A stretch of DNA of 64,000 nt from Zunongwangia profunda SM-A87 (GTDB taxonomy: Bacteria; Bacteroidota; Bacteroidia; Flavobacteriales; Flavobacteriaceae), in the NCBI RefSeq assembly GCF_000023465.1, contig NC_014041.1, positions 3,044,001 to 3,108,000 on the forward strand, given 5' to 3'. Below, in pieces: positions 7,625 through 64,000 of the stretch (position 1 is the stretch's first letter; each line of letters begins with the position of its first letter). The notes under the pieces were generated by a model. It was not told the origin of the DNA, made no database searches, and was given only the letters and a program-made list of their open reading frames with translations. Position numbers and translations under genes: made by a program.

Positions 7625-8512
7625 CTAGACATCACAAATTGTAATTCCTTCTTTTAAAGCTTCCAGTTTATCATCGTAGGTAGGAATAAATTCTTGTGCC
7701 AAATAACCGTCAAAGCCAGTTTCGATTATGGCTTTCACAATAGCGGGATAATATAGTTCCTGTGAATCATTAATCTCATTACGACCGGGAACACCTCCAG
7801 TATGATAATGATTTATATAATCATGATGTTTTTTAATAGTAGCAATTACATCCCCTTCCATTATTTGCATATGATACACATCATAGAGTAATTTAAAGTT
7901 CGGCATTTCAGTACGTTTTGCCAGCTCTACCCCCCATTCGGTATGATCGCACATATAATCATGATGATCTACTTTACTGTTTAAAAGCTCCATTACAAGG
8001 TTTACATTGCGCTCCTGCGCATATTCCAATAATGGTTTTAGCCCGTTAACACAGTTTTTAAATCCGGTTTCATCGTCCATTCCACGGCGATTCCCCGAAA
8101 AAACGATCACATTTTTAATTCCGTGTTTCGAAGCTTTTTCGATTAAAGGCCTATAAGATTCCTGTAAATGTTTATGGTTTTTTACTTCGTTAAAACCATT
8201 TTCGATATTTGCAAACGAATCTGTCGCCATCGAGCATTCTAAACCATATTTCTCTACCGTATCCCACTCTTCGGGTGTTAAGAGATCGATACCTTTTAAT
8301 CCAATTTCCGCAGCATTTTTGGCAAATTCTTCCAAAGGAATATTTTGATAACACCAGCGGCAGGCCGAATGTTTAATATTATTTTTTAAGCGTTTCATAT
8401 TTAGGTTGATTGGTTTTGCTTCAGCTTCCAATGCAATCATCGGGCTTATCCCTAAAACACCAGCACCTACGGCCATTGCTTTAATCGCAGATCTTCGATT
8501 TGTTCTACTCAT
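7625..8512 (-). CDS. Tat-exported hydroxypyruvate isomerase-like TIM-barrel protein
   Basis: The 295-residue protein belongs to the xylose isomerase-like TIM-barrel/hydroxypyruvate isomerase group. Metal-site residues appear in order: Glu in VMELLN, Asp and His in YDVYHMQ, His in HYHTGG, and Glu in AQEF. The N-terminus has a twin-arginine signal (NRRSAIK followed by a hydrophobic Ala/Gly stretch), so a metal-loaded, periplasmic location is likely. A gal-type operator lies 21-39 bases before the start codon, which ties it to the galactose regulon. Its substrate is unknown; an isomerase or epimerase for a sugar or ketoacid is the best guess. Confidence 0.8.
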   Translation of the reverse strand: MSRTNRRSAIKAMAVGAGVLGISPMIALEAEAKPINLNMKRLKNNIKHSACRWCYQNIPLEEFAKNAAEIGLKGIDLLTPEEWDTVEKYGLECSMATDSFANIENGFNEVKNHKHLQESYRPLIEKASKHGIKNVIVFSGNRRGMDDETGFKNCVNGLKPLLEYAQERNVNLVMELLNSKVDHHDYMCDHTEWGVELAKRTEMPNFKLLYDVYHMQIMEGDVIATIKKHHDYINHYHTGGVPGRNEINDSQELYYPAIVKAIIETGFDGYLAQEFIPTYDDKLEALKEGITICDV

Positions 8513-8532: not shown

Positions 8533-8551
8533 AAGCGTAAAATATACATTA
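8533..8551 (-). promoter_or_regulatory. Operator site A of the proposed galactose regulon
   Basis: AAGCGTA-AAATA-TACATTA is a 7-5-7 inverted repeat sharing the CGTA-N5-TAC core with three other sites in this locus. It lies between the regulator gene and the TIM-barrel gene, just upstream of the latter. Confidence 0.65.
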
Positions 8552-8614
8552 TAAATTAAAAAACTGTAGTAAATCTTATTATTTTAATGATATACTAAAT
8601 ATGACAGTATAAAC

Positions 8615-9319
8615 TTAAGCAATTTCAAAGTTATACCCAGATTTTACCAGCTTTTGATAATTATCATAATCAAATTTATAAAGAAAGGCACCTCTTCTGG
8701 ATGTGGTTTTATCTTTCTCGTTAAGCTTGATTAATAATCCCAGTGTCATTAGTTTTTTCCTGAAATTTCTATCATCCAGCTTCTTTTGATAAATCGCTTC
8801 ATATAGTGACTGTAATTGGGGAATTGTGAATTTTTCTGGTAAAAGCTCAAAACCTATAGGCTGGTACCTGGCTTTTCGTTTTAGCCTTGCCATGGCATCT
8901 TCTACCATCTGCCCGTGATCTAACACCAGTTCTGGTAACTCGTTTAATTCGAACCAATGGGCACCATGTGTTTCTGTAAGTTCTTTATCGTAATCATCGA
9001 TTCTAATCAACGCAAATTGTGCGATAGAAACACAGCGATAACCAGGATCCCGATTAGCCAAGCCGTAGGCTTTCAACTGCTCCATAAAAACATTATCCAA
9101 ACCGGTAATCTCTGTAAGTACACGTTTGGCTGCCTCGCTAACATCTTCTTCCATTCGTACAAAGCTTCCAATTAAGGACCAGGCTCCTAAAAATGGCTCT
9201 ACTCTTCTTTTAAAAACAAGTAATTTTAACTTTCCTGCATCAAAACCAAAAATAATACAATCGGTTGCTACGTACATTTTATCTTTTTGTACGTAGAGAT
9301 CTTTTAAAGCTGGGGTCAT
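8615..9319 (-). CDS. Nudix-domain transcriptional regulator (NrtR/AraR-like) of the galactose locus
   Basis: The 234-residue protein has an N-terminal Nudix-type domain (about residues 15-145) and a C-terminal winged-helix-like part (about 150-230), the layout of NrtR and of the Bacteroides arabinose regulator AraR. The Nudix box is degenerate: SFVRMEEDVSEAAKR is followed by VLTEI where active enzymes have the EL-x-EE pattern. This suggests ligand sensing rather than hydrolysis. It is divergent from galK, and operator-like repeats sit directly at its start codon (site B), before galK (site C), before its downstream neighbour (A) and before the symporter (D). That it controls these genes is inference from position and shared sites. 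Confidence 0.82.
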   Translation of the reverse strand: MTPALKDLYVQKDKMYVATDCIIFGFDAGKLKLLVFKRRVEPFLGAWSLIGSFVRMEEDVSEAAKRVLTEITGLDNVFMEQLKAYGLANRDPGYRCVSIAQFALIRIDDYDKELTETHGAHWFELNELPELVLDHGQMVEDAMARLKRKARYQPIGFELLPEKFTIPQLQSLYEAIYQKKLDDRNFRKKLMTLGLLIKLNEKDKTTSRRGAFLYKFDYDNYQKLVKSGYNFEIA

Positions 9320-9338
9320 AGGCGTATTTTATACAGTT
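9320..9338 (-). promoter_or_regulatory. Operator site B, at the regulator start
   Basis: AGGCGTA-TTTTA-TACAGTT follows the same 7-5-7 pattern. It abuts the regulator start codon, so it could mediate autoregulation. Confidence 0.6.
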
Positions 9339-9386
9339 TGCTGTTAAATATAGGGAAATACTTAAAAAATATTCTCTTAAAAAGAT

Positions 9387-9405
9387 GAATGTAATTTTTA
9401 CGTTT
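9387..9405 (+). promoter_or_regulatory. Operator site C, in the galK promoter
   Basis: GAATGTA-ATTTT-TACGTTT fits the 7-5-7 pattern. It ends two bases before the galK -7 box, so a bound protein would cover the promoter spacer and block transcription. Confidence 0.65.
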
Positions 9406-9407
9406 AT

Positions 9408-9415
9408 TATATTTG
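9408..9415 (+). promoter_or_regulatory. -7 promoter box of galK-galT
   Basis: TATATTTG is a perfect TAnnTTTG box, 28 bases before the galK start codon. Confidence 0.65.
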
Positions 9416-9443
9416 ATCTATAAATTTACTAAAAATTAGCATA

Positions 9444-10607
9444 TTGAGTACTTCAACCAACGCGCAAAACATACCAGAAGTTTTTTCTGATTTTAAGCCA
9501 ATTGTTAAGGTTGCCTCCCCCGGAAGGATAAACCTTATTGGTGAACATACCGATTACAACAACGGTTTTGTAATGCCTACTGCTATCGATAAGAAAATAT
9601 ATTTCGAATTTAAAGAAAACGAAACCGATAGCACATGTCGGGTTTATAGCGCCACGTATAATGCCTATTTAGAATTCGACCTGCATCATTTATCCATAAG
9701 TGATAAATCCTGGGAAAATTATATTTTAGGAGTGGCTAACGAGATAAATCTTTTAGGCAAAAAACTAAAAGGATTTGATTGTATCATAAAAAGCGATCTT
9801 TCTACCGGCGCCGGGATAAGTTCTTCTGCAGCATTGGAATGTGGGTTTGCCGCGGGGCTAAATGCGCTTTTCGATCTTGGATTAAGTAAACTGGAAATCA
9901 CGCAGCTCTCGCAAAGAGCCGAACATAATTTTGTAGGTAACAAATGCGGAATTATGGACCAATATGCCTCTGTAATGAGTAAACAGGATCATATTATCCT
10001 TTTAGATTGTGAAAGTTTACATGCTGAATATATTCCGGCAGATTTTAAATCCTGTAAACTATTATTACTAAACACTAATGTTTCGCATAACCTGGCCGAT
10101 AGTGAGTACAATACCCGTAGGCAAGAATGTGAAGCTGCCGTAGATATTATTCAAAAACAATATCCAGAAGTAAAAAGTCTTCGCGATGTAAATCTTGATA
10201 TGCTTGAAGAGTTTAAAGAGCAACTACAAGGAAAACAATACCAACGGTCACGCTACGTAATCGAAGAAAACAATCGCGTAATGAAGGCTACAACAGCTAT
10301 AAAAGCTGGTGAACTTAGCGAGTTTGGTGATTTGATGTACGGTTCTCACGACGGCCTTCAGCATAATTATGAAGTTAGTTGCCCAGAGCTTGATTTCCTG
10401 GTAGAATTCTCCAGGCCTAAAGAGTATATCTACGGTTCCCGAATGATGGGTGGTGGTTTTGGAGGTTGTACTATCAATTTAATCGAAGCCGATAAAATCG
10501 AAGAATATATTGCTGAAGCTGCTGAAGCTTATTTTAAGAAGTTCGATATAAAATTAGACACAATTGCTGTTTCACCTAGTGAAGGTACGATCGTAGAAAA
10601 GCTTTAA
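9444..10607 (+). CDS. galK: Galactokinase
   Basis: GalK phosphorylates alpha-D-galactose to galactose 1-phosphate, the first committed step of the Leloir pathway, in the cytoplasm. The 387-residue protein has the galactokinase signature GRINLIGEHTDYNNG (residues 28-41), the GHMP ATP-binding loop TGAGISSSAA (121-130), and the late MMGGGFGG motif. Translation must begin at a TTG codon at 9444, because the next in-frame ATG falls inside the signature region. galT follows 23 bases later, so the two are co-transcribed from the promoter holding operator site C. Confidence 0.95.
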   Translation: MSTSTNAQNIPEVFSDFKPIVKVASPGRINLIGEHTDYNNGFVMPTAIDKKIYFEFKENETDSTCRVYSATYNAYLEFDLHHLSISDKSWENYILGVANEINLLGKKLKGFDCIIKSDLSTGAGISSSAALECGFAAGLNALFDLGLSKLEITQLSQRAEHNFVGNKCGIMDQYASVMSKQDHIILLDCESLHAEYIPADFKSCKLLLLNTNVSHNLADSEYNTRRQECEAAVDIIQKQYPEVKSLRDVNLDMLEEFKEQLQGKQYQRSRYVIEENNRVMKATTAIKAGELSEFGDLMYGSHDGLQHNYEVSCPELDFLVEFSRPKEYIYGSRMMGGGFGGCTINLIEADKIEEYIAEAAEAYFKKFDIKLDTIAVSPSEGTIVEKL

Positions 10608-10630
10608 TTATTAATTAGAAAAAGATAACA

Positions 10631-11671
10631 ATGAGTCACGACATTAATTCGATCCCTCATAGAAGATATAATATTTTAACCGGCGAATGGATTCTTTGTT
10701 CTCCACATCGTACCAAACGACCATGGCAGGGAAAAACCGAAAAGGATACTACGCCTAAAAAGGAAACCTACGATCCCAGTTGCTATCTATGCCCGGGAAA
10801 TACCAGAAGCACCGGCGATAAAAATCCAGATTATAAAGAACCATATACTTTTATAAATGACTTCTCTGCCCTTCTAATCGATAGTCCTGTGGCTACTCAG
10901 GAAAATGGGCTGATGAAGGCTGAAACAGAAATTGGAATCTGTAAAGTGGTTTGCTTTTCACCAGATCACTCCCTTACCCTTCCTTTAATGGAAGAAGAAG
11001 ACATTACTAAAGTGGTAAAAACCTGGAAAAAGGAATATGACGAGTTAGGAAGTCAGGAAAATATTAATTATGTGCAGATCTTTGAAAACAAAGGTGCCAT
11101 TATGGGCTGTAGTAATCCGCATCCACATGGGCAAATCTGGTCACAAATGTCTATTCCAACCGAAATTGAAAAAAAATCAAAGCATTTTAAAGAATACTGG
11201 GATAAGAATCAAAGCAGTTTACTTGGTGATTATTTAAAACAGGAACTGGAAGCTAAAGAGCGAATTATTGTAGAAAATGAGCATTTTGTTGCGCTTGTTC
11301 CTTATTGGGCGGTTTGGCCATATGAGATTATGATTGCGCCAAAGAAACATCAGCAGCATATTGGGCAGTTAAGTGAGGACGAAGAAAAAGCCTTTGCTGA
11401 AATTCTTAAAAAACTGACTATAAAATATGACAACCTTTTTGAAACATCGTTCCCCTATTCAAGCGGAATTCATCAAATACCAACCGATGGCGCTGAATAT
11501 CCCGAATGGCATTGGCACATGAGTTTTTACCCGCCGCTATTACGTTCAGCTACAGTGAAAAAATTTATGGTAGGTTACGAAATGTTTGCCGGCCCACAAC
11601 GGGACATCACTGCAGAGCAGGCTGCAAAAACATTACAAAATCTAAGTGACATTCATTATTTAAAGCAATAA
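10631..11671 (+). CDS. galT: Galactose-1-phosphate uridylyltransferase
   Basis: GalT exchanges UMP between UDP-glucose and galactose 1-phosphate, giving UDP-galactose and glucose 1-phosphate. The 346-residue protein has the active-site NPHPHGQIW motif with His164 and nucleophile His166, the same number as in the E. coli enzyme. The zinc-site cysteines are Cys51 and Cys54 (CYLC), and HWHMSFYPP lies near the end. It is the second gene of the galKT operon. A galE gene is not in this window. Confidence 0.95.
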   Translation: MSHDINSIPHRRYNILTGEWILCSPHRTKRPWQGKTEKDTTPKKETYDPSCYLCPGNTRSTGDKNPDYKEPYTFINDFSALLIDSPVATQENGLMKAETEIGICKVVCFSPDHSLTLPLMEEEDITKVVKTWKKEYDELGSQENINYVQIFENKGAIMGCSNPHPHGQIWSQMSIPTEIEKKSKHFKEYWDKNQSSLLGDYLKQELEAKERIIVENEHFVALVPYWAVWPYEIMIAPKKHQQHIGQLSEDEEKAFAEILKKLTIKYDNLFETSFPYSSGIHQIPTDGAEYPEWHWHMSFYPPLLRSATVKKFMVGYEMFAGPQRDITAEQAAKTLQNLSDIHYLKQ

Positions 11672-11688
11672 TTTTTCTAACTAACCAA

Positions 11689-11735
11689 CCAATAAAAAAA
11701 TCCCGAAGTCTAATGCTTCGGGATTTTTTTATTGG
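11689..11735. terminator. Bidirectional terminator between galT and the symporter
   Basis: A perfect 20-bp stem (11689-11708 with 11716-11735) has a seven-base loop and carries both A-run and T-run arms. It serves both convergent genes. Confidence 0.93.
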
Positions 11736-11770
11736 GTATTAAAACGTTATTTCTACCAGAACATGGCATA

Positions 11771-13435
11771 TCACATGGCAACGATCAAAATGATCACAAA
11801 ACTACCGATATTAAAAATAGGTCCTGTTTTAAATAAATTTCTACTAAGCGTAATTGATTTCTCCTGAATTTTGCCTCCGGTTTCAAGATAACTGATAATT
11901 ATCATGATAAGCATGGTTAAAATCCAGGTGGCCATCATCTGGTGCATAAATGGCCAGGTAATAAAGAAGGGAGAATCGCTCCATCCGTTTGGCCCTACTT
12001 TAAAGTACAATGCAATCGGAATCGAAACCAGTACTCCCCAGATCGCTGCATTATTGGTTGTTTTTCTCCAGAATAAACCTAGCATAAATACCGCTAAGAT
12101 CCCCGGGCTAACAACCCCGGTATATTCCTGAATATATTGGAAAACCTGTCCTAAACTTTTTAGTTGAGGTGCTAAAATAATGGCAATAACCAAAGCGATA
12201 GAAGCAGTAACCCTACCTACATTTACCAGTCCTTTTTCTGAAGTTCCCGCTTTTTCCTGGAAGAATGGCTTATAGATATCCATGGTAAAGATCGTAGCGG
12301 TAGAGTTAAGCATAGAAGCTAATGACGATACAATCGCTGCCGCAAGTGCTGCTAAAACAAGTCCTTTAAGACCCGCAGGCACAAATTCCTTAATTAACCA
12401 TGGCGCAGCATTATCATTGATAATTCTGCCGTTTTCTCCAAAGAAAGAAGCACTGGTTACCCCTTCGTTAATCATACCACTGGCATCACTATTCATCACA
12501 AAAGCGATAATACCCGGAATTACGGTAATAAGTGGAATTAATATCTTTAAAAATCCTGCAAGTACGATCCCGCGTTGAGATTCTTTTAAACTTTTAGCTG
12601 CAAGGGTTCTTTGAATAATATATTGGTTAAAGCCCCAGTAATAAAGGTTTGCTACCCAAAGACCACCAACTAAAACAGCGATTCCCGGTAAATCCCACCA
12701 TGCATCCTTACCATTTGGTGTAATGATTTCTCCTTTATCAAGGATCATAGAGAATTTCTCTGGTACCTGCTCGTAAACTTCAGCCATACCGGTAAAGATA
12801 TTTCCATCACTAGAAACGTGTTCTAAAGCGATATATGTGGTGATTAGCCCCCCAATAACCAAAAGTACCACCTGTACCACATCTGTCCATGCCACTGCCG
12901 ATAAACCTCCATACAAAGAGTAAGCTGCAGCAAACAAAGCAAGCCCAATAATACATTCCATAAAAATTGCGCCATCACCGCTACCAATAATCGTATCTAG
13001 CGCCGTAGCTCCTAAGTAAAGTACAGAAGTAAGATTAACGAAAATAAATAAACAGATCCAGAAAATAGCCAAGATCGTTTTCAGGTTTTTACTGTAACGA
13101 ACCTCAATAAATTCTGGAATGGTATAAAGTTTCTTTTCAATAAAAATCGGTAAGAAAAATTTACCTACTACAATTAAAGTAATGGCAGCCATCCATTCGT
13201 AAGAGGCGATAGCCAAACCTAGCGCAAAACCAGAACCAGACATCCCGATAAATTGCTCTGCAGAAATATTTGCTGCAATTAGTGAAGCACCTATCGCCCA
13301 CCATGGCAAAGATTTACTGGCCAGGAAATAATCCTCTGAAGTATCTCCTTTCCCACGAGAAACCCATAATCCTACCCCGATTATAAGCAACGCATAGGCA
13401 ACGAATACTATCACGTCTAATAATTCAAATTCCAT
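11771..13435 (-). CDS. Sodium/solute symporter (SSS family), probably for galactose or glucose
   Basis: This 554-residue inner-membrane protein has the features of SGLT-type sodium/sugar symporters. It starts with a membrane segment, then the SEDYFLASKSLPWWAIGAS region and AANISAEQFIGMSGSG, and carries about fourteen hydrophobic segments. The family couples Na+ influx to solute uptake. Its position between galT and galM, with operator site D upstream, points to galactose or a related hexose as substrate; this is inferred, not read from binding residues. It lies downstream of galM on the same strand with a 180-base gap that holds its own candidate promoter. Confidence 0.88.
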   Translation of the reverse strand: MEFELLDVIVFVAYALLIIGVGLWVSRGKGDTSEDYFLASKSLPWWAIGASLIAANISAEQFIGMSGSGFALGLAIASYEWMAAITLIVVGKFFLPIFIEKKLYTIPEFIEVRYSKNLKTILAIFWICLFIFVNLTSVLYLGATALDTIIGSGDGAIFMECIIGLALFAAAYSLYGGLSAVAWTDVVQVVLLVIGGLITTYIALEHVSSDGNIFTGMAEVYEQVPEKFSMILDKGEIITPNGKDAWWDLPGIAVLVGGLWVANLYYWGFNQYIIQRTLAAKSLKESQRGIVLAGFLKILIPLITVIPGIIAFVMNSDASGMINEGVTSASFFGENGRIINDNAAPWLIKEFVPAGLKGLVLAALAAAIVSSLASMLNSTATIFTMDIYKPFFQEKAGTSEKGLVNVGRVTASIALVIAIILAPQLKSLGQVFQYIQEYTGVVSPGILAVFMLGLFWRKTTNNAAIWGVLVSIPIALYFKVGPNGWSDSPFFITWPFMHQMMATWILTMLIMIIISYLETGGKIQEKSITLSRNLFKTGPIFNIGSFVIILIVAM

Positions 13436-13583
13436 ATAAAAAAGTTTAGAGTGTATTTTTTAGAAAATCTCAGTATTTGAAAATAAATCGATGTAGCTTC
13501 TAATAATTAGAAAAACGCATCGAATCCCAAATGAAATAAAATTTTCACAATATTTTGCTAAAGATATTACTTTTTTAAATTAT

Positions 13584-13602
13584 AAGCGTAAAAAATACGC
13601 TT
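13584..13602 (-). promoter_or_regulatory. Operator site D, upstream of the symporter
   Basis: AAGCGTA-AAAAA-TACGCTT is the most symmetric of the four sites; the inverted repeat extends to 13582-13604. It lies six bases downstream of a minus-strand TAATTTTG box, so it would overlap the transcription start. Confidence 0.72.
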
Positions 13603-13607
13603 ATAGT

Positions 13608-13615
13608 CAAAATTA
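13608..13615 (-). promoter_or_regulatory. -7 promoter box of the symporter gene
   Basis: Read on the minus strand this is TAATTTTG, a perfect TAnnTTTG box, between the galM stop codon and operator site D. Confidence 0.55.
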
Positions 13616-14602
13616 CTATTTTTTTACACTAAATTTAAAACTCATCCTATTGTAATAAGTGTTCCCAGGTTCCAACACACTGTTGGGAAAATTCCTGAAA
13701 TTTGGCGCATCCGGGAAGTTTTGCCCTTCAAAACAAATCGAAGGAAATTCAGATATTCTGGTTTGGTAGTTTAAATCATCCGGTAAAGCTTCTGGAGCAT
13801 ATACCACTACCGCAGGTTGATTGGTAGACATATCTAATTTTATTCCTGTTAACGGAGCAAAAAGTTGTGCAGCTAACTCATCACCGTCACTATTAAGTAC
13901 GAAAGTGTCATCAAGATTTCTATTTCCTATTAAACGATTACTTGCAAAGTCTTTAGCATGTCCCTGCAAATTATTTAAATTTCCGGTAGGTAATTGCTTA
14001 TCGTTAATTTCTAAAATCTTATCTGCATTAATTTTTAAAAAGTGATCGCTTACGCTACCTTCTCCGTTAAGATTAAAATACGCATGATTGGTTAAGTTAA
14101 TTACTGTTTTTTTATCGGTTTTTGCTTCATATTCGATAATCAAGTCGTTTTCCTCATTTAGAGTATACGTAACAAAAACTTCTAAATTACCGGGATAACC
14201 TTCTTCATTATGTTTACTAAAGTACCTTAATTTAACAGTAGGGTTTTCTTCATGCTTTTCTTCTACGATCTCCCAGTATTTATACTGGAATCCATGTTCC
14301 CCACCGTGCAAATGCACACCATTTTCTTGATAAAGACTAAATTCTTTGCCTTCCAGTTCAAATTTCCCTTCAGAAATCCTTCCGGCATATCTACCTATAG
14401 AAGCTCCAAAGCACTGGTTATGGGTTTTATTTAAGGGGCTTGGTAAATCCTGTATTCTTGGTGATACAATTACATTTACCATTTTCTGATTTTTATCGTA
14501 AAGTTTAATACTCCCAATAGCTGCACCAAAATTTACGATACTAACCTCTGTACTGGCTTTATTTACCAGCTTCACGGTTTTTAATTCTTTATTATTTTCC
14601 AA
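13616..14602 (-). CDS. galM: Aldose 1-epimerase (galactose mutarotase)
   Basis: GalM interconverts alpha and beta anomers of galactose or glucose so that GalK receives the alpha form. The 328-residue protein has the family motifs GRYAGRISEG, LTNHAYFNLNG with a catalytic histidine, and the late CFEGQNFPDAPN segment with the catalytic glutamate. No export signal is seen, so it is probably cytoplasmic. It sits between a terminator on its 5' side and the symporter; I see no operator of its own. Confidence 0.93.
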   Translation of the reverse strand: MENNKELKTVKLVNKASTEVSIVNFGAAIGSIKLYDKNQKMVNVIVSPRIQDLPSPLNKTHNQCFGASIGRYAGRISEGKFELEGKEFSLYQENGVHLHGGEHGFQYKYWEIVEEKHEENPTVKLRYFSKHNEEGYPGNLEVFVTYTLNEENDLIIEYEAKTDKKTVINLTNHAYFNLNGEGSVSDHFLKINADKILEINDKQLPTGNLNNLQGHAKDFASNRLIGNRNLDDTFVLNSDGDELAAQLFAPLTGIKLDMSTNQPAVVVYAPEALPDDLNYQTRISEFPSICFEGQNFPDAPNFRNFPNSVLEPGNTYYNRMSFKFSVKK

Positions 14603-16484: not shown

Positions 16485-18338
16485 TTATTTTTTCAGTACC
16501 GAAAATTTAATGGCAGAATCTCCAAATACGGTATGTGTTTGTTTCTGAAAATCGTCTTTTTCAGCTTTAAAAATGTTGTCTACATAAATTTGTGGGTTAA
16601 GATCGATTAAAGGAAACCAGGTACTTTGAATCTGGATTTGCATCTTATGGCCCTTTTTAAAGGTATGGTTTACCCCTTGTAATGTAATATTTACATCAGT
16701 CTTTTTGTTAGGCTCAAACGGCTCTGGTTTTGAGAAATCATTTCTAAAACGGCCCCGCATCACTTCACTACGAACCATCATGTGATAATTGCTCATCTTT
16801 AAATGATCCATCGTTTCAGGATAGTTCTCGGCATCTGGAGGGTATACATCGATCACTTTGACTACCCAATCTGCGGCGCTTCCCGTAGTTGCAACTTTTA
16901 GCATTGCTTCAATTTCTCCAACCACACTTAGATCTTCGTCTAAAACTTCGGTTTCATACACCAGTACATCCGGTCTTCTTGCTGCAAACCGCTGGTCGCC
17001 GGTCATGTATTCCCGTGGCGTAAATACCGTCTTGATTTCATCGTTATACGATACCGGTTTTGCAGGGTCACTTACAAACTCTTGTTTTGTATCTGTGGGC
17101 TGGGTTGTAAGTTCCTGATCATCCCCTAAATAAAAAGTTTTTGTTACGGTGTTTTTTGGAGGCCACTGCCCATAATCTGTCCATTCCCTTTTACCAGTAT
17201 CATAAATATGTGCCTCAGCCAAGTCTAAGGAGCCTTTACCGTTTTGTTTTAAGAAATGGTTAAAGAACTTTGTTTCGTAATCCTGTTGAAATCTTGTAGA
17301 AAGGCTATCCCCAAAATACACATTGCCAACAGACTGCCTCCCGCTTTCCCGAGCCCAGTCACCGTGGCTCCAGGGGCCATACACCAAAATATTATAGGTA
17401 TTGCTGGATTTTTCAATTTTCCTGTACTCATTAAATGGTCCATATAAATCTTCAGCATCAAATAATCCACCAACAATCATCACCGCAGGTTTTACATCAT
17501 CTAAATGTTGGATAATCCCTCTGGATTGCCAAAATTCGTCATAATTAGGATGGTCTTTTAACTGTTGCCAGAATTCGTTATCTTCTTTATAATATTCATC
17601 TAAAGTACTTAGTGGTGTATGATCTAAGAAGAATTGATACTGATCCTGAGTGCCAAGTTCTGGTAACTCATACCAACTCTCTGTTGTAGGGGCATCCTTT
17701 TGATATCCAAAAAGTGCAGTTGCCCTCCAGTAGCTTAAGAGATAAGCACCATTATGATGAAAATCATCGAAAAAGAAATCTGAAATTCCCGCTTGTGGTG
17801 AAACCGCTTTTAGAGCTTCGTGAGAATCTATTAAAGAATAAACTGAATAGAATCCTGGGTAAGAAATTCCCCACATTCCAACGTTTCCATTATTGTTATC
17901 TACATTTTTTACCAACCAATCGATAGTATCATAAGTATCGCTGGCTTCATCAAATTGTTCTCCTTTTTTATTGGGAATATAGGCACGCATGTTATCATAC
18001 GTTCCTTCACTCATCCAACGCCCGCGTACATCCTGATACACGATAATATTTCCCTGTTGCATCAGGTACTGGTTAGGACCAATCATAGAACGCATTTGTC
18101 CTTCTCCATAAGGTCTGGAGCTATAAGGCGTTCTTTGCATAATAATTGGATACTTTTTTGAGGTATCCTTAGGAGTATAAATTGTAGTGTGCAGTTTAGT
18201 ACCATCCCGCATGGGAATATCCACTTCAGTTTTGGTGTAATGATCTTTTACGTTGTAATCATTGCCCGATTGAGCAGCAACCTGAAATACTACAAAGAGT
18301 AATAACGTATAAAGTAATGATCGCTGGTGTAATTTCAT
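16485..18338 (-). CDS. Secreted CocE/NonD (S15, X-Pro dipeptidyl-peptidase-like) hydrolase
   Basis: The 617-residue protein has a signal peptide ending near VAAQS, then an alpha/beta-hydrolase core and a C-terminal jelly-roll PepX_C domain. The nucleophile is in MWGISYPGFYS (serine near residue 157), the aspartate probably in GGLFDAED (near 293), and the histidine in YGPWSHGDW (near 326). Family members cleave X-Pro dipeptides, acyl-amide side chains or esters; the substrate here is not determined. It is the first gene of a pair with the DUF885 protein. Confidence 0.88.
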   Translation of the reverse strand: MKLHQRSLLYTLLLFVVFQVAAQSGNDYNVKDHYTKTEVDIPMRDGTKLHTTIYTPKDTSKKYPIIMQRTPYSSRPYGEGQMRSMIGPNQYLMQQGNIIVYQDVRGRWMSEGTYDNMRAYIPNKKGEQFDEASDTYDTIDWLVKNVDNNNGNVGMWGISYPGFYSVYSLIDSHEALKAVSPQAGISDFFFDDFHHNGAYLLSYWRATALFGYQKDAPTTESWYELPELGTQDQYQFFLDHTPLSTLDEYYKEDNEFWQQLKDHPNYDEFWQSRGIIQHLDDVKPAVMIVGGLFDAEDLYGPFNEYRKIEKSSNTYNILVYGPWSHGDWARESGRQSVGNVYFGDSLSTRFQQDYETKFFNHFLKQNGKGSLDLAEAHIYDTGKREWTDYGQWPPKNTVTKTFYLGDDQELTTQPTDTKQEFVSDPAKPVSYNDEIKTVFTPREYMTGDQRFAARRPDVLVYETEVLDEDLSVVGEIEAMLKVATTGSAADWVVKVIDVYPPDAENYPETMDHLKMSNYHMMVRSEVMRGRFRNDFSKPEPFEPNKKTDVNITLQGVNHTFKKGHKMQIQIQSTWFPLIDLNPQIYVDNIFKAEKDDFQKQTHTVFGDSAIKFSVLKK

Positions 18339-44066: not shown

Positions 44067-44699
44067 CTAGTAGATATTTATAATCGCATCTTCCTCTGCG
44101 CGTCTTACTTTTTTAAAGCTGGAGAAGATATCATCTTTAGCCCTGTAACCTACGGGCAATACCAAAACCGACTTTAAATTTTTTTCCTTCAGATTTAAAA
44201 GTTCATCATAGGCTTCCGGTAAAAAACCTTCCATAGGACAGGCATCGATTTCTTCCGTAGCACATACGGTAAGTAAAGTTCCTAATACCAAATACGCCTG
44301 ATTTTTAGCCCAAATGGCAAGTTCCTCATTCGATTTATTGCCGAAGTCTTCTAGCAGAAAATTCTTAAACGGATCTAAGATCTCATCGGGAGTTTCACGA
44401 ATTTGCTTTACGCGCTCAAAATAATTCAGAATAAATTCTTTATCTACATTATCTTCAATACATATCACCAGTACATGCGAAGCCGTAGAAAGCTGCACCT
44501 GGTTCATTGCTTTTTCCTTTAAAGATTCCTGTAACTCTTTATTTTTCACCACAACAAGTCTTATAGGCTGCAATCCATAAGAAGTGGCGGTTAGATTAAA
44601 AGCCTGCTTTAAGATATCCACCTTAGACTCTGGTAAAATCTTTTTTTCATCAAATTTTTTCACAGCATAACGCCATTGCAAAGCTTTTATATTACTCAT
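44067..44699 (-). CDS. Nitroreductase-family NAD(P)H-dependent flavoenzyme
   Basis: The 210-residue protein belongs to the NfsB-like nitroreductase group. It starts with ALQWRYAVKKFDEKK, the RxxxRxF/K-type FMN-binding segment, and has the LTATSYGLQP loop and a late VLPVGYRAKDD segment. Such dimeric enzymes reduce nitro compounds, quinones or flavins. The physiological substrate is not known, and no operon partner is visible. Confidence 0.87.
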   Translation of the reverse strand: MSNIKALQWRYAVKKFDEKKILPESKVDILKQAFNLTATSYGLQPIRLVVVKNKELQESLKEKAMNQVQLSTASHVLVICIEDNVDKEFILNYFERVKQIRETPDEILDPFKNFLLEDFGNKSNEELAIWAKNQAYLVLGTLLTVCATEEIDACPMEGFLPEAYDELLNLKEKNLKSVLVLPVGYRAKDDIFSSFKKVRRAEEDAIINIY

Positions 44700-62822: not shown

Positions 62823-64000
62823 ATGAAAGCAAGAACAACTACTCTACTAAGTTTTTGTTTTTCTGTTTGGTTACTGACTTTCCTAATGGTGAGTCCGGTT
62901 ACGGCGAAAAGCCTTCCAGCAGAAAATATTGGAGATCCTTACCAGTCTTTTAAAGGCCGGGTAATAAACTCGGTGACCGAAAAGCCAATCCAATCGGCAC
63001 ATATAAATGTAAAAGGAACAACGATTTCTACCATATCGAATGTAGATGGTGAATTTTCTTTAAAACTACCGGCAGATATGGAAGATGCGTTGATAAGTAT
63101 ATCAGCACTTGGTTATCAAACCAAAGAACTTCAGCTGGATTATTTTAAAAGGGAAAATGTAATTATTACGATGCAGGAAAGCGTACAGGAACTAGCCGAA
63201 GTAAATATTTATACCAAAGGTGACGCAACAGATCTGGTAAGAAAAATGATGCATAATCGTGATGAAAATTATGTGAGCGATGAAGCTTTAATGACTGCTT
63301 TTTATCGGGAAACCATAAAAAAAGGAAACCGTAACATTTCTTTATCTGAAGCGGTGACCGAGCTTCACAAGCAACCCTATCTTTCTAATAAAGACGACGA
63401 TATTGCAATTTTAAAAGCCAGAAAGAGCACCGATTATAAGCGTCTTGATACAGTTGCCTTAAAATTAAGGGGCGGACCTTTTAATACCCTGTATATCGAT
63501 GTGATGAAATATCCTCAATTTTTATTTGATATGGATAAATTAAACCTGTATAGCTTTAAATATGCTGAGCCTACAAAAATTGGCGAGCGATCATTGTATG
63601 TAGTCGATTTTCAAGAAATAGAACGTGAGAAACCCTGGTATTATGGCAAATTATTTATCGACAGCAAAAGTTACACGTTGGTTAAAGCTGTTTATAGTTT
63701 AAATACAGATAACCGCCAGGTGGCCAGTAGAATGTTTACCAGTAAAAAACCTAATGGGGTAAAAGTATATCCCGATAATGTACAATATCAAGTAGACTAT
63801 CGAGAAAACAATGGAAAATGGTTTTATGGCTACGGAAAAGCAGACCTCGAGTTTGTGGTAAACTGGAAGCATAAGATCTTTAATTCCCGTTACAAAATAC
63901 ATAGCGAAATGGCAATTACTGAATGGGAAGTTGCCAATATTATTGTACCTCATCATGAAGAATTTATAAAACCTGCTATCGTTATGGTAGACGATATTGA
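62823..64000 (+). CDS. Carboxypeptidase-regulatory-like domain protein, 3' truncated by window end
   Basis: The frame opens with ATG at 62823 and stays open to the last base, so the C-terminus is missing. After a signal peptide (ending near VTAKS) comes a carboxypeptidase-regulatory-like domain (about residues 43-125; FKGRVINSVTEKPI, then NVDGEFSLKLP), followed by a region starting MTAFYRETIKK, typical of large Bacteroidetes periplasmic or outer-membrane proteins with DUF5686-type or related tails. It probably acts in the envelope; no transporter motif is visible in the sequenced part. Function unknown. Confidence 0.78.
   Translation, partial: MKARTTTLLSFCFSVWLLTFLMVSPVTAKSLPAENIGDPYQSFKGRVINSVTEKPIQSAHINVKGTTISTISNVDGEFSLKLPADMEDALISISALGYQTKELQLDYFKRENVIITMQESVQELAEVNIYTKGDATDLVRKMMHNRDENYVSDEALMTAFYRETIKKGNRNISLSEAVTELHKQPYLSNKDDDIAILKARKSTDYKRLDTVALKLRGGPFNTLYIDVMKYPQFLFDMDKLNLYSFKYAEPTKIGERSLYVVDFQEIEREKPWYYGKLFIDSKSYTLVKAVYSLNTDNRQVASRMFTSKKPNGVKVYPDNVQYQVDYRENNGKWFYGYGKADLEFVVNWKHKIFNSRYKIHSEMAITEWEVANIIVPHHEEFIKPAIVMVDDI

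Follow-up and report, generated by a model that had tools for sequence, protein, structure and literature searches.

A predicted galactose-responsive regulator of the AraR type and its putative 19-bp operators in Zunongwangia profunda SM-A87 and related flavobacteria

The galactose locus and its candidate operators

The 64-kb stretch of the Zunongwangia profunda SM-A87 genome (5,128,187 bp, one contig) analyzed here, which we refer to as the window, contained a galactose locus in which galK and galT were located divergently from the gene for an AraR-like regulator. Genes for a TIM-barrel protein, an aldose 1-epimerase (GalM) and a symporter, the substrate of which is likely galactose according to the gene context, were located nearby (Table 1). 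An earlier note on the window had proposed that four inverted repeats at this locus are the operators of a galactose regulon controlled by a Nudix-type regulator, and it is this regulator and these sites that are examined below. The TIM-barrel protein contained a twin-arginine-looking leader when inspected by eye (NRRSAIK), and may be exported.

Table 1. Genes and predicted regulatory features of the galactose locus, in coordinates of the window
Feature	Positions	Strand	Basis or remark
Xylose-isomerase-like TIM-barrel gene	7625..8512	-	Pfam AP_endonuc_2; operator upstream; predicted regulon member
Predicted operator before TIM-barrel gene, AAGCGTAAAATATACATTA	8533..8551	.	centre 30 bp from gene start
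AraR-like regulator, 234 aa, Nudix-like domain and NrtR/AraR winged helix	8615..9319	-	Pfam; BtAraR 5bs6, E 2e-75
Predicted operator touching regulator start codon (predicted autoregulation), AGGCGTATTTTATACAGTT	9320..9338	.	
Predicted operator in galK-galT promoter, common to divergent regulator, GAATGTAATTTTTACGTTT	9387..9405	.	
galK -7 box TATATTTG, TAnnTTTG type	9408..9415	+	sequence; spacing
galK, TTG start as called	9444..10607	+	TIGR00131 above cut-off; ZPR_2833 by inference
galT	10631..11671	+	TIGR00209 above cut-off; ZPR_2834 by inference
SSS-family sodium/sugar symporter	11771..13435	-	TIGR00813 above cut-off
Predicted operator just downstream of symporter -7 box, AAGCGTAAAAAATACGCTT	13584..13602	.	
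Symporter -7 box TAATTTTG	13608..13615	-	sequence
galM (aldose 1-epimerase), no operator of its own	13616..14602	-	Pfam Aldose_epim

The regulator contained a NUDIX domain (34 bits, cut-off 21.1; 3.4e-8) followed by an NrtR_WHD domain (94.6 bits, cut-off 27; 3.9e-27), which is the arrangement that defines the NrtR family, and it also matched AraR_C (PF19368; 48.5 bits, cut-off 23.8; 1.1e-12). The best solved relative was AraR from Bacteroides thetaiotaomicron, here called BtAraR, to which it was aligned without gaps across 220 residues; the AraR_C winged helix and this close similarity place it in the AraR subfamily. The NrtR equivalog model for NAD metabolism (NF050029) gave 134 bits, below its cut-off of 400, and the surrounding genes were gal genes. 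By its domain matches, the regulator is a member of the NrtR family in the wide sense, outside the NAD-metabolism equivalog.

All of the arabinose-contacting residues Arg34, Arg86 and His131 were retained in the window regulator. The hydrophobic wall of AraR, Phe36, Phe49, Val92 and Phe129, was represented by Val, Phe, Cys and Leu, and the DNA-contact positions contained Asp179, Arg180, Asn181, Lys184, Arg204 and Arg205, so that neither set was fully conserved. The neighbours were galK, galT, the symporter and galM instead of arabinose genes. Because of the changes in the pocket and the DNA contacts, together with the linkage to gal genes, we consider the regulator to belong to an AraR-like paralog branch rather than to be an AraR ortholog. 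At about 827 kb, 2,033 kb and 2,808 kb, the genome encoded three further regulators or domains from this family (L089, L090 and L091), in which the pocket residues were quite different.

The four 19-mers were found at positions 8533, 9320, 9387 and 13584, as the earlier note had claimed, and their placement relative to the TIM-barrel gene, the regulator start and the -7 boxes of galK and the symporter was also correct. All four contained GTA-N5-TAC; of the outer four bases, 1, 1, 2 and 4 matched on the two sides, and the symmetry was perfect only at 13584. The statement that comparable sites are missing elsewhere in the window failed for the bare pattern, which occurred 21 times in 64 kb. A matrix was learned from the clade's galK promoters, including that of the window. 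With this branch matrix, the four sites were the top four of the window at 15.1-21.2 bits, followed by 14.4 bits at 63155 and 13.8 bits at 16680, both within coding frames.

The pattern GTA-N5-TAC with A/T-rich flanks had 3 matches in the window (8533, 13584 and 44253) versus 1.8 expected. The AAGCGTA-N5-TACGCTT pattern with at most 3 mismatches had 9 matches versus 2.6 expected, a number reached in 0 of 100 shuffles; only 3 of these were sites of the earlier note, and the 9387 site was not included. The palindrome at 44253-44271, TTCCGTAGCACATACGGTA, was matched by the pattern search yet scored less than 8 bits with the branch matrix. Since the bare pattern is common and the A/T-flanked form occurred at chance frequency, the sequence of the window is not enough to establish an operator, and significance within the window was abandoned as a basis because generic scans separated the four sites poorly from chance. 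The case was instead built on comparison.

With a second matrix, trained with all Zunongwangia sites excluded, three of the sites were the top three of the window (19.0-20.2 bits). The scores with the branch matrix and with the genus-free matrix were 21.2 and 20.2 bits for the 9387 site, the centre of which was located exactly 12 bp before the galK -7 box, 20.4 and 19.0 bits for the 13584 site, and 19.7 and 19.3 bits for the 8533 site, which had a site at the equivalent position in L001, L002 and L010. The 9320 site scored 15.1 bits with the branch matrix, dropped to rank 7 with the genus-free matrix, and had a counterpart at the equivalent position in L001, L002, L010 and L137. In 40 simulated windows scored with the genus-free matrix, an average of 1.2 sites, and never more than 5, scored as high as the weakest of the four; the other three were far stronger.

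Conservation of the operator and its dependence on the regulator

A search of 397 Flavobacteriaceae genomes gave a match of any strength to the regulator in 171. Wide loci cut around the stronger matches in this family and in named genomes contained 116 regulator frames, 112 of which were distinct; 34 short loci (L015-L048) were excluded from the neighbourhood analysis, for which the wider stretches were used. Within six genes of the 112 regulators, we found galK or galT in 34 cases, arabinose genes in 37 and neither in 41. In a quick tree, a galactose branch of 56 regulators fell on the same side of the family as AraR, with 99% support in the Shimodaira-Hasegawa-like approximate likelihood ratio test (SH-aLRT), and comprised all 34 galactose-linked regulators, one labelled as arabinose-linked (L051) and 21 unlabelled. 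The window regulator was a member of this branch, with Val36 and an AAAYGTA-N5-TACRTTT operator before galK. The Zunongwangia genome also encoded a paralog from the arabinose branch, 49% identical, which contained Phe36 and adjoined an arabinofuranosidase-type gene. A regulator from a different family of the same order (L197) contained Val36 and adjoined galK and galT. Across the phylum, 28 top-match loci from a sample of 395 genomes were checked (L245-L272, two from the same family): 22 regulators contained Phe36, 5 contained Ile or Leu and had no gal gene within 1.5 kb, and 1 was unreadable; at one locus with Phe36 (L245), araA and araD were accompanied by a galK-like match.

The motif was conserved before orthologous gal genes. 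When dyads of 3- and 4-mers with spacers of 0-14 were enumerated, with upstreams from the same loci as controls, GTA-N5-TAC ranked first among 4,800 dyads before galK in the galactose-branch loci, where it was present in 30 of 34 upstreams versus 7.2% of 670 control upstreams (p 2e-27). With leave-one-out matrices, 32 of the 34 upstreams scored above the 95% control level, the misses being L061 and L064. The symmetrised consensus of the branch was AAAYGTA-N5-TACRTTT, which replaces the AAGCGTA-N5-TACGCTT motif given previously. Of 29 galK promoters, 21, including five from Zunongwangia, had a TAnnTTTG box that started exactly 12 bp from the operator centre; the distance was 23 bp in 2 others, and the box was missing in 6.

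In the arabinose-branch loci, the same enumeration placed TGT-N7-ACA first (68 of 109 upstreams versus 5.5% of 398 controls). Base 3 was G in 75 and base 4 was T in 108 of 110 half-sites from this branch, which were chosen by their likeness to the AraR consensus. In the half-sites of the galactose branch, base 3 was A in 72%, and base 4 was T in 58% or C in 33%.

Of the 89 sites that reached 11 bits in the galactose-branch loci, 74 were intergenic according to our own gene calls. These intergenic sites preceded galK, the regulator, the symporter and TIM-barrel genes, susC, genes for a glycoside hydrolase family 53 (GH53) galactanase and a GH2 protein, a hybrid two-component sensor gene, a sulfatase/GH3 pair and others. 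The exact dyad was found before 7 of 10 TIM-barrel genes and 9 of 16 SSS genes. It was found before none of the 15 galM genes in these loci, and galM of the window was rejected as a direct target. Two sites of 22.8 bits each were located just before the gene for a glycan-type hybrid two-component sensor (L114:9271-9289 and L120:9273-9291), which suggests that a monosaccharide repressor gates a polysaccharide sensor.

The dependence of the sites on the regulator was studied in genomes where the regulator gene and galK are separated. The regulator was located away from galK in 22 galactose-branch loci; 19 genomes were searched (all but L008, L111 and L113), 17 of which contained galK. As a comparison, we used 40 genomes without a galactose-branch regulator, of which 33 contained galK, and 30 galK loci were examined. 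A site of at least 11 bits was present at the distant galK promoter in 10 of the 17 genomes with the regulator versus 0 of 30 without (p 4e-6), and the exact dyad in 8 of 17 versus 1 of 30. In five of these genomes (L054, L055, L126, L133 and L135), the regulator adjoined genes of the amino-acid-degradation type (urocanase, arginase family, homogentisate-dioxygenase-like), and all five had the operator at their distant galK. The conservation upstream of galK and the regulator-dependent distant sites thus support the proposed galactose regulon under a Nudix-type regulator.

Given the number of bare dyads in the window, and the A/T-flanked form at close to its expected count, the four sites might be taken for chance palindromes in A/T-rich intergenic DNA. 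The dyad enrichment, the -7 spacing, the dependence on the regulator and the simulated windows all speak against this explanation, to which we give next to no credence. Chance is ruled out by comparison for the sites at 8533, 9387 and 13584, while the 9320 site rests on its conservation within Zunongwangia.

In the BtAraR complex, Arg180 was reported to intercalate next to operator base 4 (PMC4666351). Residue 180 was Gly in two genera, and at all 9 of the loci checked in these (7 and 2; L034, L036, L038 and L237-L242) a site of the AAAAGTR-N5-YACTTTT type was located before the regulator, corresponding to a change of base 4 from Y to A. At L240, one half only was of the AAAAGTR type, and at L239 and L241 the site was second best according to the Arg180 matrix. 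At 34 loci with Arg180 (68 half-sites), base 4 was T in 40, C in 24, A in 3 and G in 1. The two genera are close in the tree, according to which the covariation is one or two events. Since base 4 changes with residue 180, this protein is tied to these sites. A corresponding rule for residue 179 was rejected, as base 3 was mostly A irrespective of whether this residue was Asp, Ser, Pro, Thr, Ala or Gly; the loss of Lys179 alone separates the galactose branch from the arabinose branch.

This covariation, the absence of sites from all 30 galK loci where the branch is missing, and a motif geometry that is that of AraR argue against a different regulator, LacI-family or Crp-like, that acts through the motif with the Nudix-type protein as a bystander. 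LacI sites are CG-centred and have no spacer. The strain is reported to have three LacI-family genes, one of which is up on lactose (PMC4332637), and Crp-like sites have been described before the ara, xyl and fuc operons in Bacteroides, but their consensus, TATGTTnTAnAACATA, is unlike the motif (PMC3878776). We regard control by such a regulator as very unlikely.

A sequence-only model built from 55 operators indicated 20 places in the genome, all of which were inspected, and the 9320 site was missing from this list. After rescoring with the matrix, intergenic sites of at least 18 bits preceded a GH2 gene (3,181,697; 23.9 bits), galK (21.2), the symporter gene (20.4), a GH30 gene (near 2,828,719; 19.8), the TIM-barrel gene (19.7) and a second galM gene (18.9). 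Two operator-like sites, of 15.0 and 18.9 bits, were located upstream of the second galM (L225:7770-7918; genome 4,655,769-4,655,917). A site at 1915786 scored 19.3 bits inside a coding frame, and is a false positive above 18 bits. This site and those in coding frames at 3784673, 1801157, 1130668, 2643369 and 1712825 were not counted as part of the regulon, and neither were the intergenic sites at 1331938 (fumarylacetoacetase, serine hydroxymethyltransferase) and 938172 (OmpH-like), for which there was no link to sugars. These coding-frame and non-sugar sites imply that false positives occur below 18 bits, with one above. TonB-dependent receptor genes were preceded by sites at 3304155 and 804557 (16.8 bits each), and a further site was located at 3419761 (12.4 bits); these three are possible regulon sites. 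Positions 28-2353 of the window, near the galactose locus, encode an alpha-amylase-like protein and a neighbour that by eye resembles a starch-locus outer-membrane protein, and both recur beside the galactose locus in relatives (clusters 13 and 18).

The ligand pocket and a proposed mechanism

D-galactopyranose is L-arabinopyranose with an additional CH2OH on C5. In the BtAraR pocket, the four arabinose hydroxyls were reported to be held by Arg34, Arg86 and His131, with Tyr5, Phe36, Phe49 and Val92 around C4/C5 and Phe129 facing C2; some residues of the hydrophobic wall vary in Prevotella (PMC4666351). The three hydroxyl-holding residues were retained in both branches. At position 36, Phe was found in 35 of 37 arabinose-linked regulators, whereas all 34 galactose-linked regulators contained Val (28), Ile (4) or Leu (2) (p 3e-18, with related rows counted as independent). 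Furthermore, 36 of 37 arabinose-linked regulators had Gly at position 48, where the galactose-linked ones had Ser (29), Ala (4) or Thr (1), and 35 of 37 had Phe at position 129, where the galactose-linked ones had Leu (33) or Met (1). In the DNA-binding part, Lys179 was present in 34 of 37 arabinose-linked and 0 of 34 galactose-linked regulators (p 4e-17, counted in the same way). A smaller residue 36, packed on C4/C5, would provide room for the extra CH2OH of galactose, and retained hydroxyl holders with a smaller residue at C4/C5 are consistent with what a switch from arabinose to galactose would need.

The same regulator and operators might respond to another effector, either galactose 1-phosphate, a UDP-sugar or, through cross-talk, L-arabinose. 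Phe36 of BtAraR also occupies the space that a phosphate takes up in SoNrtR, so that its loss could open this space, but it packs on C4/C5 of arabinose (PMC4666351), away from C1 where the phosphate would sit. As the hydroxyl-holding residues are unchanged, arabinose might still bind; however, the genome contains a separate paralog from the arabinose branch, which has Phe36 and is encoded next to an arabinofuranosidase gene, and position 36 splits with the gal or ara neighbours. We therefore consider another effector unlikely, although less so than the alternatives discussed above.

In Z. profunda SM-A87 grown on lactose, galK (ZPR_2833) was reported from RNA-seq to be up 12.9- and 22.3-fold and galT (ZPR_2834) 15.0- and 51.3-fold on days 4 and 6, and galK was also up by reverse-transcription quantitative PCR with lactose or with glucose plus galactose (PMC4332637). 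Since the genome contains a single copy of galK, ZPR_2833 and ZPR_2834 should be the genes in the window. The discussion of that study, in the part available to us, mentions LacI for exopolysaccharide genes and names no gal regulator (PMC4332637). AraR from B. thetaiotaomicron is reported to repress in vivo, and arabinose relieves the repression (PMC5061871). The response of galK and galT to lactose would fit operator binding that is released by galactose.

Our interpretation, to which we assign a probability of about 0.78, is that the protein encoded at 8615-9319 is a homodimeric, AraR-type repressor that acts on the 19-bp operators and is relieved by galactose. In the absence of galactose, the dimer would occupy the operators, filling the space between -33 and -7 at galK-galT, covering the start region at the symporter gene, and binding the sites before the regulator and TIM-barrel genes. 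Galactose that enters the cell would bind the Nudix-like cleft in place of L-arabinose and, like arabinose in BtAraR, rotate the winged helices together, such that the DNA is released. The promoters would then be freed and the uptake and Leloir genes would rise. The regulon probably also includes distant genes that free galactose from glycans.

Several observations weigh against this interpretation. Operator binding, repression and free galactose as the ligand are deduced from homology and covariation, and bare GTA-N5-TAC dyads are common by chance. The 9320 site is weak outside the genus (9.9 bits without Zunongwangia). In the genome-wide model, no site was significant alone among the 150 of 7,977 first-look candidates that were scored (best E 0.07). 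The exact pattern AANYGTA-N5-TACRNTT occurred at 5 places in 5.1 Mb versus 4 for a reversed control, and the evidence is therefore the identity of the targets (symporter, GH2 and GH30, with the other two places at 2870431 and 2892388) rather than their number. No site was found at 7 of the 17 distant galK promoters, 6 of which belonged to a sub-branch with the regulator beside a PD-(D/E)XK nuclease gene (L051, L053, L056, L057, L128, L132 and L134); in this sub-branch, which may serve other genes, galK had an operator in 1 of 7. Finally, only one of five annotated beta-galactosidases, ZPR_4170, was reported to be up, by 2.1-fold (PMC4332637).

As for the origin of the branch, an ancestral arabinose repressor may have been duplicated and then retuned both in the pocket (Phe36 to an aliphatic residue) and in the recognition helix (179 and 180), with the operator changing from AAGTGTW to AAAYGTA, and to AAAAGTR in the two genera without Arg180. 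The pocket, which would recognize the four hydroxyls common to L-arabinose and D-galactose, could thereby have come to accept the additional CH2OH. We hold the odds of this scenario to be about even, given that at 2 of the 9 Gly180 loci the AAAAGT site ranked second with the Arg180 matrix, and that base 3 shows no relation to the identity of residue 179. If true, the branch would be a series of naturally occurring variants in which ligand and operator switches are coupled, and would govern the use of galactose and galactan across marine Flavobacteriaceae, and the deep-sea flavobacterium a natural, testable case of a sensor retuned between sugars. Since the AraR structures name the residues at C4/C5 and the bases that are read, a few point mutants would suffice to test both switches, and the Gly180 members allow the unusual intercalation of arginine reported for AraR to be probed in naturally occurring proteins. 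More generally, our analysis proposes a regulator of galactose use, and partly of galactan use, in many flavobacterial glycan degraders, for which the open literature searched yielded no description of one. Such a regulator would account for the 13-51-fold rise of galK and galT published for Z. profunda (PMC4332637).

Comparison with known systems

The closest characterized system is BtAraR (BT0354). The oligonucleotides used with this protein contain AraR sites, one of which is AAGTGTA-AAAAA-GACACTT (PMC4666351), and the 7-5-7 geometry described in the earlier note is thus not new but already that of an assayed Bacteroides AraR operator. The window regulator is similar to BtAraR in its two-domain architecture, ungapped alignment, 7-5-7 operator and the Arg34/Arg86/His131 set and, as described for AraR, some operators of the galactose branch precede SusC-type or hybrid two-component genes. 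It differs at positions 36 (Phe to Val), 48 (Gly to Ser), 92 (Val to Cys), 129 (Phe to Leu), 179 (Lys to Asp) and 204 (Lys to Arg), in the operator (AAAYGTA versus AAGTGTW) and in the neighbours (galK/galT versus ara genes). The DNA contacts of BtAraR, Lys179, Arg180, Asn181, Lys184, Lys204 and Arg205, were reported to be absolutely conserved in AraR orthologs (PMC4666351).

XylR (BT0791), which we compared by its description, is likewise a member of the NrtR family that controls sugar genes (PMC3878776), but AraR and XylR are reported to be 33% identical and to form separate branches (PMC4666351), and the window regulator sides with AraR. With SoNrtR and other ADP-ribose-responsive NrtRs, it shares the fold and the winged helix (PDB 3gz5, E 3e-23), whereas it differs from the NrtRs of NAD metabolism in its equivalog score below the cut-off, its gal neighbours and its predicted ligand. 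Enterobacterial GalR and GalS are LacI-type galactose regulators, and are parallel in job only, as their protein family is unrelated to that of the window regulator. The IclR-family GalR of Salinivirga, with D-galactonate as the predicted ligand (PMC5507952), is similar in its galactose-related control but also belongs to an unrelated protein family.

The sugar regulators of the NrtR family described in the papers found are those for arabinose and xylose (PMC3878776, PMC4666351). A galactose-type member was not found in the open-licence literature, a search that did not extend to the RegPrecise database and subscription journals, and the word galactose does not occur in the part of the RegPrecise 3.0 paper that was available (PMC3840689). 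We conclude that the architecture, mechanism and operator geometry of the system are known, and that its predicted ligand, operator sequence and regulon are new.

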